This document shows positions 4,917 to 15,726 of a stretch of DNA of 61,859 bases, in pieces. The notes below the pieces were generated by a model. The model saw only the letters and a list, made by a program, of their open reading frames with translations. It was not told the origin of the DNA and made no database searches. The stretch is from assembly GCF_004168285.1 (NCBI RefSeq), contig NZ_SEWF01000034.1:1-61859 (forward strand), written 5' to 3'. The position numbers and the translations under genes are program-made. The stretch's first letter is position 1; each line of letters opens with the position of its first letter. The stretch comes from Emticicia agri. GTDB taxonomy: Bacteria; Bacteroidota; Bacteroidia; Cytophagales; Spirosomataceae.

Positions 4917-5006
4917 GTTTGGAAAGCATTTTTTTATTCTAACGTTAAAATTATGCCAAAGTATAAAATTTCAAAACTTTTTATTTTAATTTATCGTAAT
5001 TATAAA

Positions 5007-5031
5007 TGTATCACGATTTTCCAAATCGTCG
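5007..5031. repeat. Short dispersed palindrome, TGTATCACGATTT type
   Basis: ACGATTT (5013-5019) faces AAATCGT (5023-5029) between two divergently transcribed genes. A related copy with the same TGTATCACGATTT start lies at 49071-49093. The ACGGATT/AATCCGT hairpins at 31975 and 38034 are similar in design. Confidence 0.55.
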
Positions 5032-5128
5032 TTAGTAAATAGGATACAACTAAAATACGGGCCTGTTTTTTAGTGAATACAAGTCTATCAATTGTGCAGC
5101 GTTCGCATACATAAAACTTATAAAAACA

Positions 5129-5632
5129 ATGAAAAATAAAACATTCTGGAAAAATATCACACTCATGATAGGTGTGTTGCTGACAGTCCAAACCTACGCA
5201 CAAAATAAAACCAAAGCCAATGCAAAACCCGATTGCAAGATTGCCGTAATACAGAAATCGGAAGAGGAATGGAAAAAACAATTGAGCCCGGTGCAGTTTG
5301 CTGTTGCCCGCAAAGCAGGTACTGAACGTGCGTTTACAGGTGAATACTGGGATAACCACGAAAAAGGCATTTATAAATGTGTCTGCTGCGATTTAGACCT
5401 TTTCAGTTCAGATACCAAATTTGAATCAGGCACCGGCTGGCCCAGTTTCTATAAACCGCTCAACGATTGCGCTGTAGAAAATAAAGTAGATGCCAGCCAC
5501 GGCATGGTGCGTACTGAGGTGGTTTGTAACCGTTGTAAAGCCCATTTAGGCCACGTTTTCGACGATGGCCCTAAACCTACAGGCTTACGGTATTGTATGA
5601 ACTCGGTATCAATGAAATTTGTGAAGAAGTAG
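5129..5632 (+). CDS. msrB: Peptide-methionine (R)-S-oxide reductase MsrB, exported
   Basis: A 167-residue MsrB that reduces methionine-R-sulfoxide in oxidised proteins. An N-terminal signal peptide (cleavage after QTYA, about residue 24) places it in the periplasm. The zinc site is complete: Cys84/Cys87 and Cys133/Cys136. GTGWPSF and GHVFDDGP are the family core motifs, and the catalytic Cys156 is in RYCMNSVSM. It stands alone, with a terminator-like hairpin right after it. Exported MsrB enzymes depend on an envelope reductant, and thioredoxin-fold proteins are encoded elsewhere in this window, but no link is shown by position. Confidence 0.95.
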
Positions 5633-5642
5633 GAAAAGCAAT

Positions 5643-5669
5643 AAAGGTCTCTCAGAAATGGGAGACTTT
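5643..5669 (+). terminator. Terminator-like hairpin after msrB
   Basis: AAAGGTCTC and GAGACTTT can pair around a short loop, starting 10 bases after the msrB stop. One G bulges. The T-run is short, so strength is uncertain. Confidence 0.5.
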
Positions 5670-5783
5670 ATTAATATACTTCCGTAAAATAAGTACTTTG
5701 CCATAAAATAAGTTTTTGCACGGGTTGATTTGGATAGTGCCAATAAAGGCGATAATCTTGCCTTTATTATAAACCTCCGAATC

Positions 5784-7334
5784 ATGAAACTGTCTTTTAC
5801 TATTGCTGTGTGCTTCTTTTTTACAGTTAGCTGTCTGCAAGCTCAGAATTTAACACTAACTCCCGGCAATCAGGGGAAATTAAATTTACCAAGGCTTAAT
5901 TATGAGCAGATTCTGGCTATTCCTTCACCTGAAAGTGGCAGTATTGTCTACGACCTCACTACCAATTGTATCCGGTTCTTTAATGGTACAAAATGGATTC
6001 GGACTGACCAGAAAAGCGGTGATTTTGCGCCTACCGCACTTTCTGCCTGGAAGGTTTCTGAATTGAATCCTCAAAATGGTTTTCAGTCTAATCATATTGC
6101 TGTCGATAATCAGGGTAATATCTATATTACCGGTCTTTTTATGGACAATTTCAAAATTAAAGGCGTTACCTACCAGGCATTGGGCTATGGCGATTTTTTT
6201 GTGATAAAATACAACAATGCAGGTGTACCGCAATGGGTAAAGACCGGAGGCAGTCAGAATAGTTATGCTACTGCGGCTAATGTAGAAGTTGATAATCAGG
6301 GAAATGTTTTTTTTGCGGGAGGCTTTTTCAATACTTTAGTTTTTGATGGTAGTTCTTATCCTGCCAATAATTCGTCAGAAGATATATTCGTCTGCAAATT
6401 ATCTGCTGCTGATGGCAGTGTGTTAGCCATGAAAACCTTTGGCGGCAGCAATTATGATACCATAGGCAGAATTTTTGTCGATAACCAAAGTAATGTCTAT
6501 GTAACAGGCACTTTTGTGGGAGCTTGTAATTTTGATGCTTTTTCGGTAACAGGGATTGATAATAACGATATATTTATTGCAAAATGCAATGCCAATCTGC
6601 AATTTCTGTGGGTAAATAAAATTGTAGGAGTTAGTTCCGATTATGGCAGTCGTATCTATGGAGACAATGCCGGAAGTGTTTATATTACAGGAGCTATTGG
6701 GTCTGATGCCACTTTTGCTCCGGGCTATACATTCTCTCCGGGTATGCAAACCATGTTTGTGGCTAAATACGATGCTTCTAACGGAAGTTATCTCTGGCAT
6801 AGAAACCAGACTAATACAGGGTTTATGAGTTATGCCCATAATATTGTGGTAGATAGTGAAGGAAATGCCTATATAGGGGGATACTTTTTTACCTATATTG
6901 ATTTAGGAGGCCTACAATTCAATGCATCAGGAAGTGCTTCTGACCTGTTTTTAGCTAAAATTTCAAAAGATGGTGTCTGGCAATGGTGTCAGAAATCGCT
7001 GAGCAATGACTCTTATGATACCGAATATTTCAGTGATTTGAAAATAACTTCCACTGATGAGTTGTTTTTAGTTTGTAAAACTTCTTACAACCCGAATTTC
7101 GGGTTTGGTGATAAGCGATATGCAGGTAATAATTTTATATTCAAGTTTGATAAAAACGGAGGTGTAAAAGGAGGGAACGCCATTCAGTCAGGTATGAATC
7201 AGTATATTCAGAGTGTAGCTATTGGCGGCAATTACCATTACCTGACGGGTTATTTTCAGAGTTCTATCTCTTTTGGTAACATTTCGTTGGCATCTCCTTC
7301 GTATAACGGTTTTGTGGTGAAATTGGTGGAATGA
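5784..7334 (+). CDS. Secreted SBBP-repeat propeller protein
   Basis: A 516-residue exported protein. The start is placed at the ATG at 5784 because a normal signal peptide (MKLSFTIAVCFFFTVSCLQAQ) begins there; the frame is open 54 bases further up without signal character. The N-terminal segment (about 20-80, LPRLNYEQILAIPSPESG ... GTKWIRT) is a conserved head shared with the decayed gene at 57645. Repeats of about 50 residues follow, with the pattern VDNQGNVYITG and IFIAKCN or FFVIKYN, typical of SBBP beta-propellers. No T9SS sorting domain is evident at the C-terminus. Function unknown; probably a surface or periplasmic adhesion/binding protein. Confidence 0.75.
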   Translation: MKLSFTIAVCFFFTVSCLQAQNLTLTPGNQGKLNLPRLNYEQILAIPSPESGSIVYDLTTNCIRFFNGTKWIRTDQKSGDFAPTALSAWKVSELNPQNGFQSNHIAVDNQGNIYITGLFMDNFKIKGVTYQALGYGDFFVIKYNNAGVPQWVKTGGSQNSYATAANVEVDNQGNVFFAGGFFNTLVFDGSSYPANNSSEDIFVCKLSAADGSVLAMKTFGGSNYDTIGRIFVDNQSNVYVTGTFVGACNFDAFSVTGIDNNDIFIAKCNANLQFLWVNKIVGVSSDYGSRIYGDNAGSVYITGAIGSDATFAPGYTFSPGMQTMFVAKYDASNGSYLWHRNQTNTGFMSYAHNIVVDSEGNAYIGGYFFTYIDLGGLQFNASGSASDLFLAKISKDGVWQWCQKSLSNDSYDTEYFSDLKITSTDELFLVCKTSYNPNFGFGDKRYAGNNFIFKFDKNGGVKGGNAIQSGMNQYIQSVAIGGNYHYLTGYFQSSISFGNISLASPSYNGFVVKLVE

Positions 7335-11536: not shown

Positions 11537-12706
11537 ATGAAAACAAACATAAAGTTTATAGCTATCCTGATAGCTTGTTTTTGTACTGAATCAACTTTCG
11601 CTCAGACTTCGCCTGACTGGAAGAAAACGACTATTACAAGAGATTTTATTTCAGAAGGAGTGGCAGTGGCCGATTTGAATAAAGATGGCAAAATGGATAT
11701 TGCGGCAGGCTACTACTGGTTTGAGGCTCCAAACTGGACACGCCATGAAATGGCTCCCTCACGTACCTTCGACCCTCGCAAAGAATACAGTGAGTCTTTT
11801 CTGAATCTGGGTATGGATGTAAACTTAGACGGTTGGGATGATGTGGTGATTGTGGACTTCCCCGGTAAAGTGGGTTTCTGGTTTGAGAACCCTAAAAACA
11901 AACCCGGACAATGGACTAAACATATTATTGATGACTCAGTAGGAATATCCAACGAATCGCCGGGTTTTATTGATATTGATGGCGATGGTCGTTTAGATAT
12001 TCTTTGCGGAGATAAGAACAAAAAGCAGATTGTTTGGCTACAAGCGCCTACAAAAAAAGGCGAAACGACATGGAAACGTCATAACCTGACCAAAGAAAAT
12101 GTAGCCGGAACAGAGATATTTTCTCATGGAATAGGTTTCGGTGATATAGATAAAGACGGTATTAACGATGTGGTTGTGCGTGAAGGTTGGTATAAAGGAA
12201 CAAAAGATACTAAAGCAGGCAACTGGGTATTTCATCCGGCTAATTTAGGCGAACCTTGTTCGCACATGCAGATTCTTGATGTGAACGGTGATGGCAAGAA
12301 CGATGTAGTAAGTGCTTCTGCTCACGCTTTGGGTATTTGGTTTCATGAGCAGGTGACTGATGAGCAAGGTAAAATCAACTTCAAAACTCACACCATGAGC
12401 AAAACTACTGCCCAGACTCACTCGTCTATCATGGCTGATGTGAATGGTGACGGCAAAAAAGAATATATTACAGGAAAAAGATTTCTGGCACACCACGGTC
12501 GCGACCCGGGTGATGCCGATGCTGCCTATTTATTGTATTTTGAGTTTACACCCGATAAAGCTCCTTACTGGAAAGAACACGTAATAGACAATGATTCAGG
12601 CGCAGGACTAAACATTGTAGCGCAAGACATCAATAAAGACAAAAAAATCGACATCGTAATAGCGAATAAGAACGGAGTGTTTTTATTTGAGAATGTGCGT
12701 AAATAA
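11537..12706 (+). CDS. Secreted FG-GAP/VCBS repeat protein
   Basis: A 389-residue exported protein (signal peptide 1-22, ending TFAQ). The body is a seven-bladed FG-GAP-like propeller. Calcium-loop motifs of the DxNxDG kind recur: DLNKDGKMD, DVNLDGWDD, DIDGDGRLD, DIDKDGIND, DVNGDGKND, DVNGDGKKE, DINKDKKID. The first blade carries AAGYYWFEAPNW. Proteins of this kind in Bacteroidota often accompany DUF1080 proteins in sugar catabolism, and a DUF1080 gene follows here. The exact ligand is unknown. Confidence 0.85.
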   Translation: MKTNIKFIAILIACFCTESTFAQTSPDWKKTTITRDFISEGVAVADLNKDGKMDIAAGYYWFEAPNWTRHEMAPSRTFDPRKEYSESFLNLGMDVNLDGWDDVVIVDFPGKVGFWFENPKNKPGQWTKHIIDDSVGISNESPGFIDIDGDGRLDILCGDKNKKQIVWLQAPTKKGETTWKRHNLTKENVAGTEIFSHGIGFGDIDKDGINDVVVREGWYKGTKDTKAGNWVFHPANLGEPCSHMQILDVNGDGKNDVVSASAHALGIWFHEQVTDEQGKINFKTHTMSKTTAQTHSSIMADVNGDGKKEYITGKRFLAHHGRDPGDADAAYLLYFEFTPDKAPYWKEHVIDNDSGAGLNIVAQDINKDKKIDIVIANKNGVFLFENVRK

Positions 12707-12824
12707 TTGAGTGATTGAGCGATTTAGTGAATGAGTGATTATAATTTTGAGTACTCAATATGTATCTCGAATTTTAAATAACAAATAATCTGTTTTTAAT
12801 TACTAAATCGCTCAATCACTCAAT
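12706..12824. repeat. Perfect 23-bp inverted repeat built of ATTGAGTGATT-like units
   Basis: Arms 12706-12728 and 12802-12824 are exact reverse complements with a 73-base spacer. The arms themselves contain a tandem 8-base unit (GAGTGATT/GAGCGATT). It fills the gap between the FG-GAP and DUF1080 genes; the left arm begins inside the stop codon of the former. Confidence 0.8.
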
Positions 12825-12847
12825 CACTCAATTTAAAGAATACATTC

Positions 12848-13537
12848 ATGAAAAAACTCATACTTATACTATTAATCACATGCTATGGACTAACATCCTC
12901 GGCACAGACGCCCGGCAAATGGATAACCTTATTTGATGGAAAAAGTGCTGATGGCCTGAGAGGTTACAAAATGGATAAATTTCCTGATGGGGTTTGGGTT
13001 ATCAAAGATGGCTCGCTGCAAACCATTCCGAAAGTGAAGAATGTTGATTTAGTTACTAAAGAACAATTTGGTAATTTTGAACTGGAATATGAATGGGCAG
13101 TGGATACAGCTGCTAATTCGGGTATATTTTTTCATTTGCAGGAAGACAAAGCAATGGTTTCTAACCACGGCAATAGCCCTAACTGGCTCGATAATTTTGA
13201 GATTCAGATATTAGATGATAAATATTTCAATGATACGGCGGCCGTTCGTTCGGCAGGTTCATTATACGATTTAATGAGACCTGTAAACAAAAAACTAATG
13301 CCTATCGGACAGTTTAACAAAGCTCGACTGATACATAAAGACGGTCATGTACAACACTGGCTGAATGAAGCAAAAGTACTTGATTTTGAAATCGGAAGTC
13401 AGGCAGTAAGAGAACTCATTATCAGAAGTAAATACAGTAAAAACCCACGTTTTCAGGCCTACAAAGAAGGCCATATCATGCTACAACACCACGGGCAGAA
13501 AGTTTATTTTAAGAATGTGCGGGTGAGGCGGATATAG
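12848..13537 (+). CDS. DUF1080 (3-keto-disaccharide hydrolase domain) secreted protein
   Basis: A 229-residue exported protein (signal peptide 1-19). The family opening WITLFDGKSADGLRGY is at about 25-40, followed by a concanavalin-like beta sandwich with NFELEYEWAVDTAANSGIFFH and NFEIQILDD, ending IMLQHHGQKVYFKNVRVR. Members are assigned to hydrolysis of 3-keto-glycosides in Bacteroidota. The preceding FG-GAP gene and the shared direction suggest joint function. Family call firm, substrate inferred. Confidence 0.9.
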   Translation: MKKLILILLITCYGLTSSAQTPGKWITLFDGKSADGLRGYKMDKFPDGVWVIKDGSLQTIPKVKNVDLVTKEQFGNFELEYEWAVDTAANSGIFFHLQEDKAMVSNHGNSPNWLDNFEIQILDDKYFNDTAAVRSAGSLYDLMRPVNKKLMPIGQFNKARLIHKDGHVQHWLNEAKVLDFEIGSQAVRELIIRSKYSKNPRFQAYKEGHIMLQHHGQKVYFKNVRVRRI

Positions 13538-13550
13538 TGGAGTTTATTTG

Positions 13551-13608
13551 CAGATTAATAATAGACAAAGGACTGATTTTAGTCTGGTCTTTGTCTATTA
13601 TTAATCTG
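13551..13608. terminator. Long hairpin, probable bidirectional terminator
   Basis: A perfect 20-bp inverted repeat (13551-13570 and 13589-13608) with an 18-base loop that itself can pair GACT/AGTC. It sits between the convergent DUF1080 gene and mnmE, where a two-way terminator is expected. No long T-run flanks it, so it could also be a repeat element. Confidence 0.6.
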
Positions 13609-13629
13609 CCAACTGTTTTCATTTATGAA

Positions 13630-15555
13630 CTATTTTCCAATACAAAACTTACTGAAAATATTTGCTAATAAATCATCGGTAGTTATTTGGCCTGTAATTT
13701 CTCCTAAATGATAGAGAGATAAACGAATATCCTGTGCCAAGAAATCGCCTGTGATGCCCGAACTTAAACCGTTTAAAACTTCACTTAAAGCATCGTGGGC
13801 TTTTATCAGGTGTTCGTAGTGACGTAAGTTGGTAAGCATAGTATCTGATTGCTTTTTTAGCTTGGACTTGGCTAAGATGGTGTTTTTTAAGTCTTCAATA
13901 CCGATATTGTTTTTGGCTGAGATATGGATGGTGGAGTACACCTCACCCAACCCTCTCCTTGAAGGAGAGGGCTTAACAGCCTCTACCACGGATTCACTCC
14001 CCTCTCCTCCTTCAAGGAGAGGGGTAGGAGGTGAGGAGGCCGCCGCTGCGGAAAAACTCTCAGTTATCGTCTCTAAAACTTTCTCAATATTTCTTAGTAC
14101 TTCCTCATTCGTAAATCTCAGAATCTTTATGCCATAAATAAACTCAATGTCAGTAGTTCTGGCTTTATCATATTTTTTTTGAGTTTCATTACCATGATGT
14201 ACACCGTCTATTTCTATGCCTAATTTGCACTCATCGCAATAAAAATCGAGTATATAGTTTTCCTCTAATGGATGTTGTCTTCTAAATTTTTTGCCTCCTA
14301 ATAGCCTGTCTCTCAATAATTCCCAAAGGATTTTTTCAGTCTCCGTTGAGTTCCTACGTAATTCTCTTGCTTTTTTTAGGAGATTTGTAGAGACGATATT
14401 AAAGGCAGATTTCACTTTCTCCGAAGTAACGCCCTCCTCACCCCCAACCCCTCTCCCTGAGGGAGAGGGGAGTTTTTTTAAGCCCTCTCCTTCCAGGAGA
14501 GGGTTGGGTGAGGCGGCCGCCGCTGTGGAATACAAATCAATCTTATTCCTAACCCAAATCACTTCCTTGTCTTTAACTATGTCAGCAAAAGTATTAGCCA
14601 GGAAAAGCTGGTCGATTTCGTTTTCAAAGAGTAGAATCACAATCTCAGCTTTTTCCATTGCTTGTTTTGAGCGTTCGATGCCGATGGTTTCTACTACGTC
14701 TTTGGTTTCGCGGATACCTGCGGTGTCGATGATGCGGAATTTCATGCCACCGATGAAAAGAATGTCTTCGATTACATCACGGGTGGTGCCGGCTATTTCT
14801 GTAACAATGGCTTTTTCTTCGTTGAGCAGGATATTAAGCAAGGTCGATTTTCCGGCATTAGGTGGGCCGATAATGGCTACCGGAATCCCTTCTTTAATAA
14901 CATTGCCTGCATCGAAAGAATCTATTAGTTTTTTCAGAAAATTCTGAATTTTCAATATTAATTGTCTTAAATCTTCTCGCCCGGCAAATTCTACATCCTC
15001 TTCACCGAAATCTAACTCTAATTCTACCAGTGAAGCAAAATGGACTAGTTCTTCACGCAAGATTTTTAATTGGGTTGAGAACCCGCCTCGCATCTGGTTT
15101 AAGGCAGTTTTATGAGCTGCCTCTGAGTCTGCCGCAATCAGGTCGGCTACTGCTTCGGCTTGTACCAAATCAAACTGTCCGTTCAGGAATGCTCTTTGGG
15201 TAAACTCACCCGGCTTTGCCATGTGGCAGCCGTTCTGAATGAGTAGTTTAAGAATATATCTGATAATATAGTCGCTGCCATGACAGGAGATTTCTATGAC
15301 ATCTTCTTTAGTAAAACTACGAGGTGTTTTGAACACCGAAAGCAGCACTTCGTCAATGATTTTTCCTTTGGTGTTGTCAGTATAATCTCTGATAGTACCA
15401 AAATGAATGGTGTGTGATTCAACTTTAGTTAAATCTTTCCCTTTAAAAATCTTGTTTACAATTGCTAAGGTTTGCTCGCCCGAAACCCTGATTACCCCAA
15501 TAGCCCCTACACCTTGTGGCGTGGCTAAGGCACATATTGTGTCTAACTGAACCAT
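13630..15555 (-). CDS. mnmE: tRNA-modifying GTPase MnmE carrying an in-frame DUF559 nuclease insert
   Basis: MnmE works with MnmG to modify wobble uridine 34 of tRNAs. It has 641 residues, against about 450-460 in the family. The N-terminal folate-binding domain is complete (DTICALATPQGVGAIGVIRVSG). The G domain has P-loop GPPNAGKST (230-238), GTTRD (256-260), DTAG (277-280), NKID (337-340) and SAK (546-548). The C-terminal FCIGK (637-641) with the active Cys638 is intact. Residues 344-541 are foreign: palindrome-encoded peptide, a DUF559 nuclease-like domain (about 388-500), then palindrome-encoded peptide. The whole frame is open, so the fusion should be translated. Removing exactly 198 codons at the flanking 10-bp repeat leaves a 443-residue MnmE. 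Convergent with the DUF1080 gene. Confidence 0.93.
   Translation of the reverse strand: MVQLDTICALATPQGVGAIGVIRVSGEQTLAIVNKIFKGKDLTKVESHTIHFGTIRDYTDNTKGKIIDEVLLSVFKTPRSFTKEDVIEISCHGSDYIIRYILKLLIQNGCHMAKPGEFTQRAFLNGQFDLVQAEAVADLIAADSEAAHKTALNQMRGGFSTQLKILREELVHFASLVELELDFGEEDVEFAGREDLRQLILKIQNFLKKLIDSFDAGNVIKEGIPVAIIGPPNAGKSTLLNILLNEEKAIVTEIAGTTRDVIEDILFIGGMKFRIIDTAGIRETKDVVETIGIERSKQAMEKAEIVILLFENEIDQLFLANTFADIVKDKEVIWVRNKIDLYSTAAAASPNPLLEGEGLKKLPSPSGRGVGGEEGVTSEKVKSAFNIVSTNLLKKARELRRNSTETEKILWELLRDRLLGGKKFRRQHPLEENYILDFYCDECKLGIEIDGVHHGNETQKKYDKARTTDIEFIYGIKILRFTNEEVLRNIEKVLETITESFSAAAASSPPTPLLEGGEGSESVVEAVKPSPSRRGLGEVYSTIHISAKNNIGIEDLKNTILAKSKLKKQSDTMLTNLRHYEHLIKAHDALSEVLNGLSSGITGDFLAQDIRLSLYHLGEITGQITTDDLLANIFSKFCIGK
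13941..14052. repeat. Palindromic repeat cassette, copy 1 (mnmE insert)
   Basis: It reads CCTCACCC ... GGTGAGG ... GCCGCCGCTGCGGAA and contains two internal palindromes (CCCTCTCCTT-G-AAGGAGAGGG and CCCCTCTCC ... GGAGAGGGG). The same start, palindromes and end occur in copy 2 in the same orientation. In mnmE it encodes residues of about 503-538 with the pattern PPTPLLEGG ... PSPSRRGLGE. Confidence 0.85.
14436..14530. repeat. Palindromic repeat cassette, copy 2 (mnmE insert)
   Basis: It starts CCTCACCCCC and ends GCGGCCGCCGCTGTGGAA, with palindromes CCCCTCTCCCT-G-AGGGAGAGGGG and CCCTCTCCT ... AGGAGAGGG. It is a direct repeat of copy 1, shorter by 17 bases, and encodes residues of about 344-377 of MnmE (PNPLLEGEGL ... 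PSPSGRGVGGEE). The opposite strand encodes a near-identical peptide because the unit is palindromic. Confidence 0.85.
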
Positions 15556-15638
15556 ATTTTTTGATTGAAAACAGACTATTTAATTACATAAATTAGTCAA
15601 ACTGGTCTGATTTCAAGGAAATTTGATTAAAATTTATT

Positions 15639-15646
15639 TACTTTTG
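15639..15646 (+). promoter_or_regulatory. TACTTTTG, Bacteroidota -7 element
   Basis: Matches the TAnnTTTG consensus, 80 bases before the start of the 905-residue protein gene. No -33 TTG at the usual 19-21 spacing is obvious; a TTTG lies only 13 bases upstream. Confidence 0.45.
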
Positions 15647-15726
15647 CAAATCTACTTTTAAACTTTCTCGATTAAAAGTAGTTATGCTGTTGATGCCGTC
15701 TATACGAAGAATTACGTTGCTTTCTT

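Follow-up and report, generated by a model that had tools for sequence, protein, structure and literature searches.

An in-frame nuclease insert in mnmE

The window, i.e., the complete stretch of 61,859 nucleotides of Emticicia agri (contig NZ_SEWF01000034.1) that was analyzed here, contains a mnmE gene that carries an element encoding a DUF559 nuclease domain within its reading frame (Table 1). The insert notwithstanding, the MnmE product scores 398 bits against the cut-off of 380 bits of its NCBIfam model, and Pfam assigns to it TrmE_N, MMR_HSR1 (residues 226–338), DUF559 (residues 392–499) and MnmE_helical, the latter as a single match that spans residues 130–638 and is stretched around the DUF559 domain. 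The insert is preceded by the motif NKID and followed by SAK, leaving the G domain between the strand preceding NKxD and the strand preceding SAK, and the protein ends on FCIGK. The initial annotation had described a mnmE frame open throughout, two intact MnmE halves including FCIGK, and a 198-codon insert between NKID and SAK containing an intact DUF559 core with Asp437, Glu448 and Asp450. All of this is borne out, the insert amounting to approximately 192 extra codons: the distance from KID to ISA is 630 nucleotides in the window vs 54 nucleotides in all seven same-genus relatives read (G004–G010; G, L, g and C designate genomes, loci, genera and contigs), corresponding to a net gain of 576 nucleotides or 192 codons.

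Table 1. Features of the mnmE gene in the window and of the element inserted into it
Feature	Position	Strand	Basis or remark
mnmE with in-frame DUF559 insert	13630..15555	-	single open reading frame, 641 amino acids, no stop; NCBIfam MnmE NF003661
Element, terminal repeat to terminal repeat	13941..14513	-	573 bp = 191 codons; length divisible by three
DUF559 (PF04480) domain, residues 392–499	14059..14382	-	Pfam, whole-protein E 3.4e-31
Asp437, catalytic position by homology	14245..14247	-	kept in 79/79 embedded elements >60 bits
Glu448, catalytic position by homology	14212..14214	-	kept in 79/79 embedded elements >60 bits
Asp450, catalytic position by homology	14206..14208	-	kept in 79/79 embedded elements >60 bits
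Terminal inverted repeat, gene-distal end, CCTCACCCAACCCTCTCCTTGAAGGAGAGGGCTTAA	13941..13976		36 bp, 97% complementary to other end
Terminal inverted repeat, gene-proximal end	14478..14513		36 bp, 97% complementary to other end
REPIN-like opposed hairpin pair (CTCACCC..hairpin....hairpin..GGTGAGG)	13942..14036		translated SSPPTPLLEGGEG...PSPSRRGLGEV; architecture matches other genomic copies
Second REPIN-like hairpin pair	14437..14513		translated SPNPLLEGEG...PSPSGRGVGGE
Flanking direct repeat GTGGAGTAC, candidate target-site duplication	13931..13939		one mismatch to 14525–14533
Flanking direct repeat GTGGAATAC, candidate target-site duplication	14525..14533		9 nucleotides, imperfect
GC-rich palindrome GCGGCCGCCGCTG beside element end	14514..14526		similar stretch at 14037–14049

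The same-genus relatives also show that the extra region in mnmE is an insertion and not an ancestral domain, since their sites are empty or hold a relic: next to the empty sites, the KID-ISA linker is longer by a few codons in G001 and G002, and G003 contains 150 nucleotides of decayed palindromes without the nuclease. In 31 of the 33 other genomes searched, MnmE matches extend over the first half of the protein and, where listed, over its last hundred residues, and none of those listed crosses the nuclease; no MnmE-level match was obtained in the remaining two (G017 and G020). Among those listed of the seven matches in the window genome there is one full-length MnmE, the others being a GTPase-domain match and a second DUF559 domain. 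This second domain (C2:136506-136850, L141) forms the N-terminal, in-frame part of a glycosidase-like open reading frame of 454 amino acids, named by eye, and the same arrangement is repeated in the sister species G003 (L142).

Next to the three acidic residues, the histidine following Asp450 is likewise kept in 79 of 79 embedded elements. The folded part (residues 390–506) is predicted with a predicted local distance difference test score (pLDDT) mostly above 90 per block in the full-length model and of 91.8 when folded alone, and the two models agree. By sequence as well as by fold, the closest solved structures are 3hrl, an uncharacterised endonuclease-like protein, and then the homing endonuclease I-Bth0305I, 3r3p (sequence 5.8e-7; fold 2.1e-4), with weaker profile matches to a PHROGs HNH endonuclease (5.1e-8), a PHROGs homing endonuclease (4.5e-5) and PADLOC mREase_II. 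Nuclease fold and conserved catalytic residues thus both agree with a Vsr-like/EDxHD homing endonuclease. In the four of 22 pairs with a synonymous divergence (dS) below 1, the ratio of nonsynonymous to synonymous divergence (dN/dS) is approximately 0.005–0.10 (0.020/0.278, 0.024/0.441, 0.048/0.491 and 0.004/0.791). Judged by these ratios the nuclease is under strong purifying selection, and it therefore appears to be functional and selected.

The element is built as hairpin pair, nuclease and hairpin pair, with CTCACCC tails pointing outward on each side, and its hairpin pattern is found four times in the window compared to a mean of 0.07 in shuffles. This REPIN-like construction had been missed by the initial annotation, which rightly located an insert in 13931–14534, but set its borders too wide: the repeats end at 13941 and 14513, and the excess includes the imperfect 9-nucleotide direct repeat. 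In an AlphaFold model, the translated repeats (residues 341–385 and 508–538) have pLDDT values below 50 and are predicted to be disordered linkers, and the MnmE parts are mostly confident with block means of 59–98 up to residue 340 and of 72–93 in most of 541–640, suggesting that the insert loops out of MnmE, in agreement with the surface loop that the annotation had proposed to look for. The model has a predicted template modeling score of 0.55, and the MnmE alignment rows are partly misaligned into the nuclease region.

The insert is apparently retained in the protein without splicing. Among the Pfam matches of the MnmE product at E 0.001 there is no intein or Hint domain, and no Rfam family exceeds its gathering score in 13500–15700, where none of the 38 weak matches is to an intron family; both results agree with the absence of intein splicing residues and of group I or II intron features noted at the outset. 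An intein identity was rejected, as Pfam finds no Hint domain and the insert beyond the nuclease is mostly predicted to be disordered, and so was a group I or II intron identity, as Rfam finds no catalytic RNA core in this region. It might be argued that the insertion is processed by an unrecognized intein-like splicing, by proteolytic removal or by ribosomal bypass, since removal would benefit essential hosts and strong hairpins stand on both sides of the nuclease. However, the mostly disordered prediction outside residues 390–506 would leave little room for a splicing domain, bypass would not call for the open frames seen across the repeats, and the element ends differ in sequence, making a processed insertion very improbable.

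Further small repeats were seen in and around the element. The GC-rich palindrome (GCGGCCGCCGCGCGG-like) lies within or beside REPIN-like copies in the window (14037–14052 and 14514–14526) and at L157, L158, L163 and L166, as if one small element had entered another. An intergenic gap of the window (12700–12835) contains short near-tandem units, TGAGTGATTGAGCGATTTAGTGAATGAG and its complement, and similar units, ATTCACTC, are translated in the linker of isoleucyl-tRNA synthetase (IleRS) of G009 and G004 (L336 and L337), where G006 has the nuclease element.

Hosts, frames and occupancy of the insertion sites

DUF559 domains were detected in 26 of 58 relatives and in 223 of 390 genomes of the order, and the search for copies in frame within unrelated genes, suggested by the initial annotation, returned many hosts. 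The best 150 DUF559 matches of the 390 genomes comprise 63 in frames of at least 400 codons, two in frames of 250–399 codons and 85 in shorter ones. The 63 long-frame loci, 17 further stretches and the window resulted in a set of 79 embedded elements above 60 bits, in which host sites were named by motif. Matches below 60 bits (e.g., L146 and L147) were left out of the counts, and L144 and L145 were left out of the tree described below. By reading, approximately 55 of the 79 elements are placed internally in their hosts, the remainder being terminal fusions or unclear.

The most frequent sites are the B12 linker of MetH (13 elements), the C-terminus of PurQ (12), the editing site of leucyl-tRNA synthetase (LeuRS; 10), IleRS (7), an AddA/RecB-like helicase (6) and the catalytic site of LeuRS (5), followed by MnmE and the A|B junction of 3-oxoacid CoA-transferase with three each, by UvrA, the MetH C-terminus and the RecQ N-terminus with two each, by the MetH homocysteine domain (1) and by other sites (13). 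The same sites recur across taxa: the MetH B12 linker is occupied in eight genera of five families, the LeuRS editing site likewise in eight genera of five families, IleRS in six genera of three families and MnmE in three genera of one family, to which Runella zeae adds a nuclease at the same MnmE site as in the window. All 17 host proteins scanned match their host family (ten vs NCBIfam, seven vs Pfam). MetH, LeuRS, IleRS, RecQ, orotidine-5'-phosphate decarboxylase, acetate--CoA ligase and both CoA-transferase subunits exceed their curated cut-offs despite the insert; UvrA is above TIGR00630 and slightly below NF001503 (1125.6 vs 1147), and the scores of PurQ and the RecB-like helicase do not reach the cut-off of the model that fits each of them best. 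In L085, L125 and L135, the element at the 3-oxoacid CoA-transferase site fuses subunits A and B, scored for L125, into one frame, so that the insertion seems to have bridged two genes. Weak DUF559-profile matches below 60 bits at other places in LeuRS (second matches in L071 and L086; L147) are possibly degenerate old insertions or due to chance.

A scan of 84,980 species yielded at least 80 loci, and in 17 of these 80 the frame of the nuclease comprises more than 170 additional codons; these figures are not frequencies, because the search pattern requires part of the active site and the number of loci is a lower bound. Hosts named by eye are MetH of Flavobacterium cucumis and LeuRS of an uncultured Dokdonia, and hosts named by models are an orotidine decarboxylase of Dehalococcoidia, a riboflavin synthase of Patescibacteria and a methylase of Spirulina; several of the scanned loci are contigs of metagenome-assembled genomes with a less certain taxonomy. 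In a viral collection (37 loci), L252 has the nuclease within valyl-tRNA synthetase, and four other long frames are doubtful.

At the MetH site the frame is kept in 12 of 13 filled loci, a proportion to be read with the fact that embedded loci were chosen by a long open frame, which favors in-frame cases. None of 112 stand-alone DUF559 loci compared with these host families lies between two pieces of one host; two directly follow MetH (L209 and L224) and one adjoins RecQ (L037). In this comparison, rows labeled 'over', as well as those labeled 'down' for L187 and L262, were disregarded due to an unmasked second nuclease in one query. L187 (Pedobacter sandarakinus, 4992–6434) encodes three tandem DUF559 domains that are approximately 560 bp apart. 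Moreover, the filled LeuRS is the sole LeuRS found at E 1e-60 in 14 of 15 genomes, and the filled IleRS is the only one above the cut-off in six of seven, the IleRS of G006 being in pieces on two contigs that both show the start of the element. As the sole copies found carry the insert, these essential synthetases appear to function with it, unless it is removed after translation.

Filled and empty sites coexist in single genera, namely at the MetH site in six genera and at the UvrA and IleRS sites in one genus each. For MetH, filled vs empty sites number 3/1 in g136, 2/2 in g117, 1/1 in g72 (where G131, G144 and G169 are uninformative) and 2/1 in g45; g95 has two filled sites, five empty ones and one relic without nuclease, and g113 has one filled, frameshifted site and one empty site. 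In the genus of the window, the UvrA site carries the element in G001 and a relic in G003; it is empty in G000 and G007, and unbroken alignments point to empty sites also in G002, G004, G006 and G008–G010. For IleRS, G006 has a filled site, and the six relatives read have empty ones. Relatives without the nuclease, with which the initial annotation had proposed to align MnmE, were thus found, and within the genus their mnmE sites are empty, scarred or occupied by a nuclease-less relic. In-frame palindromes without nuclease occur in LeuRS, where L087 and L096 have them at the catalytic site and L099 at the editing site, and in IleRS (L120) at a position for which G006 likewise has a short repeat. 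Palindromes that lie in frame and are translated in conserved genes, as in Rickettsia palindromic elements (RPEs), are consequently found at LeuRS, IleRS, MetH, UvrA and MnmE sites.

Repeats, inheritance and possible movement of the element

The genome of the window contains 36 exact hairpins CCCTCTCC-loop-GGAGAGGG, four of them inside the mnmE element, and none of the reversed control pattern, which occurs once or twice in nine of the 390 genomes. Nine of 15 other hairpin loci read have no frame of at least 110 codons over the hairpin; the frames over the remaining six are, by reading, short or carry the hairpin close to one end, and several loci show the same paired layout. The repeat family therefore has the properties of REPIN/REP sequences, i.e., paired inverted hairpins, a conserved tail and many, mostly intergenic copies. 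Across the embedded set, inverted repeats that join the two flanks score at least 16 in 56 of 79 elements compared to none of 76 control flanks. The common element end is GCCTCACCCCC-NN-CCCCTCTCC-loop-GGAGAGGGGGAGCC, and other lineages have GCCCCC-NN-CCCCC-loop-GGGGG.

These repeats might be moved by another enzyme, with DUF559 being captured between two of them as cargo and the in-frame placement reflecting selection against broken genes. Palindromes without nuclease in frame at the same sites are consistent with such a passive hitch-hiking, as are the in-frame REPs in uvrA, uvrB and further genes and the RPEs already known, for which the passages on RPEs and REPs in the report describing them mention no nuclease like DUF559 (PMC3733652). 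The genome of the window also has four matches to Y1 transposases, a possible source of mobility; however, none of these four Y1_Tnp loci has such hairpins within 1.5 kb. Furthermore, the repeats go together with the nuclease: hairpins were found in 140 of 223 genomes with DUF559 vs 29 of 167 genomes without (odds ratio of 8, uncorrected for phylogeny), and 27 of 28 genomes with at least 30 hairpins have DUF559, the exception being G351. Together with the purifying selection on the nuclease, this makes passive hitch-hiking unlikely.

Ancient insertions, inherited vertically and lost many times, could also account for occupied sites, with a nuclease that is immobile or domesticated, e.g., as regulatory or repair domain of its host. 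Such an origin would fit the presence of the same sites across families, the relics in sister species and the nuclease tree (111 columns, little resolved), in which site labels cluster with 26 changes compared to 54.7 when shuffled, clearly so for MetH_B12, PurQ, IleRS and AddA. On the other side, the elements are patchy within genera, their hosts have no obvious common function, and related elements occupy different host sites in one genus, as seen for LeuRS_cat beside LeuRS_edit in genus g44 with a value of 97 in the Shimodaira-Hasegawa-like approximate likelihood ratio test; similarly, CoA-transferase elements fall among MetH elements. Because codon composition confounds a comparison of nuclease and host at synonymous sites, fourfold degenerate sites were normalized for composition. 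At these sites, nuclease divergence exceeds host divergence by more than 0.2 in 47 of the 79 within-genus pairs whose hosts are unsaturated. PurQ accounts for 63 of these pairs, non-independent ones drawn from 12 sequences, and shows the excess in 37; among the other 16 pairs it is seen in 10. Strict vertical descent of an immobile nuclease is therefore distinctly unlikely, and the patchy, recurrent occurrence combined with the excess divergence of the nuclease cores suggests that the element spreads.

We consider it probable that the insert represents a selfish nuclease element that is translated but not spliced and that homes to permissive linkers. The in-frame placement and the tolerance of the element are well supported by the sequences; active homing is inferred. 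In this explanation, a Vsr/I-Bth0305I-like nuclease bracketed by REPIN-like palindromes occupies, in frame, the linkers of genes that are conserved and in many cases essential, and the host protein would fold around the nuclease, which is predicted to loop out on disordered linkers. The nuclease might cut the unoccupied allele, and repair from the occupied copy would insert the element; alternatively, it may act on the palindromes themselves. Insertions out of frame would disrupt the host gene and hence be purged by selection. The location in an essential gene could provide expression without an own promoter as well as protection from deletion, and loss of the nuclease would leave behind in-frame palindrome relics.

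Several observations weigh against a homing element of this kind. Embedding in a gene is not obligatory, given the 85 of 150 listed matches in frames below 250 codons. The MetH insert of G208 (L302) has a frameshift that leaves the gene as two separate frames of 909 and 573 codons, and G167 encodes an insert-free N-terminal LeuRS fragment (C49:15024-16202, frame of 420, below the cut-off) that overlaps the filled LeuRS on contig C174; this fragment may stem from a second strain, a contamination or a second copy. A target-site duplication is not general, as the mean best flanking repeat of 51 elements is 4.35 compared to 4.17 in shuffled pairs, the window element having the highest value at 8. 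In the nuclease tree, LeuRS_edit, LeuRS_cat and UvrA cluster weakly or not at all, and the window element is not grouped with the other two MnmE elements. No excess of nuclease divergence is seen in 32 of the 79 pairs; the MetH and LeuRS_cat elements of g45 diverged like their hosts or less, tracking them in a way that resembles vertical descent. Finally, protein identities reveal no recent cross-family transfer among the rows shown, where the best pair with a well-aligned host exceeds the identity of its host by only 0.03. In view of the tree jumps and the excess nuclease divergence, but also of g45 and of the lack of such transfers, re-invasion of the same sites is likely rather than proven.

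In a wider sense, it is quite possible, and put forward here tentatively, that palindrome-bounded DUF559 nucleases constitute a new and widespread class of bacterial mobile elements that are translated inside single-copy essential proteins and home to permissive linkers beside conserved motifs, with tolerance replacing splicing, and that the nuclease also mobilizes REP-like repeats. The elements point to a role for DUF559 and provide a candidate mobilizing enzyme for a REP-like repeat family that is not found beside a Y1 transposase in the genome of the window. They may also account for fusion proteins that are annotated as multidomain enzymes, and their recurrent sites represent a natural catalog of loops tolerating a domain of approximately 110 residues, which is useful in protein engineering.

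Relation to known mobile elements

The combination seen here, in which an in-frame nuclease bounded by REP-like ends occupies many essential genes of several phyla, fits no single known system. As judged by titles, abstract openings and passages of the open-licence literature, it was not found in print: neither an association of DUF559 with such repeats nor its embedding in frame was encountered. DDE-type insertion sequences and miniature inverted-repeat transposable elements were rejected as classification, since a target-site duplication is not generally seen across the 51 elements.

The existence of inteins and introns is usually explained by the need for a traceless product. The elements described here appear to need no removal step, even in genes as critical as those for leucyl- and isoleucyl-tRNA synthetase, which makes it directly testable what a retained insertion costs and how permissive linkers are chosen. 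Inteins with a homing endonuclease are in-frame nuclease insertions at conserved sites of essential genes with a sporadic distribution, and the DUF559 elements resemble them in all of these respects; in contrast to inteins, no splicing domain was found and the insert seems to remain in the protein. REPIN/RAYT systems consist of inverted hairpin pairs in many copies and a nuclease-type gene flanked by hairpins. This arrangement is shared, whereas the partner here is DUF559 instead of an HUH Y1 transposase and copies lie in frame within essential genes. Membership in the REPIN/RAYT group, in which REPs flank the RAYT gene, was rejected for the window genome by its four Y1 loci. I-Bth0305I, an EDxHD/Vsr-like homing endonuclease, is the second-best solved relative of the nuclease after 3hrl; its PDB listing names a mobile intron protein, whereas no intron is present here.

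RPEs and intragenic REPs are described as palindromes translated in frame inside conserved genes, including uvrA and uvrB, with more than half of the inserts being dimers or groups that encode 20–30 residues, for which a position in flexible linkers or loops was suggested (PMC3733652). The palindromes bounding the DUF559 elements are alike in being short, in frame and translated in conserved genes; they differ in their tags, which are GTAG or CGTC in the former and CTCACCCC in the latter, the GTAG class being associated with RAYT transposases (PMC3733652). The WHO/HO elements of yeasts are reported to home into the aldolase gene without protein splicing (PMC7282813). Unlike the internal insertions found here, they replace the 3' end of FBA1, and they encode intein-zinc finger fusion proteins (PMC7282813).

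Of the systems compared, the ShiLan domain also is an unspliced insertion in the frame of its host: it was described as an insertion of 202 amino acids in a phage methylase that is readable in the host frame, has no intein or intron features, is predicted to loop out of the methylase and is thought to home (Arsenault et al., 2025; PMC11855218). Mention is also made of a lone LAGLIDADG insertion in which no splicing domain was detected (PMC11855218). The HNH nuclease of ShiLan is hidden out of the host frame (PMC11855218). A nuclease of this hidden type was rejected for the window, as DUF559 shares the frame of mnmE; the elements described here differ from ShiLan by an in-frame nuclease of another fold, by their palindromic borders and by their presence in many unrelated genes.

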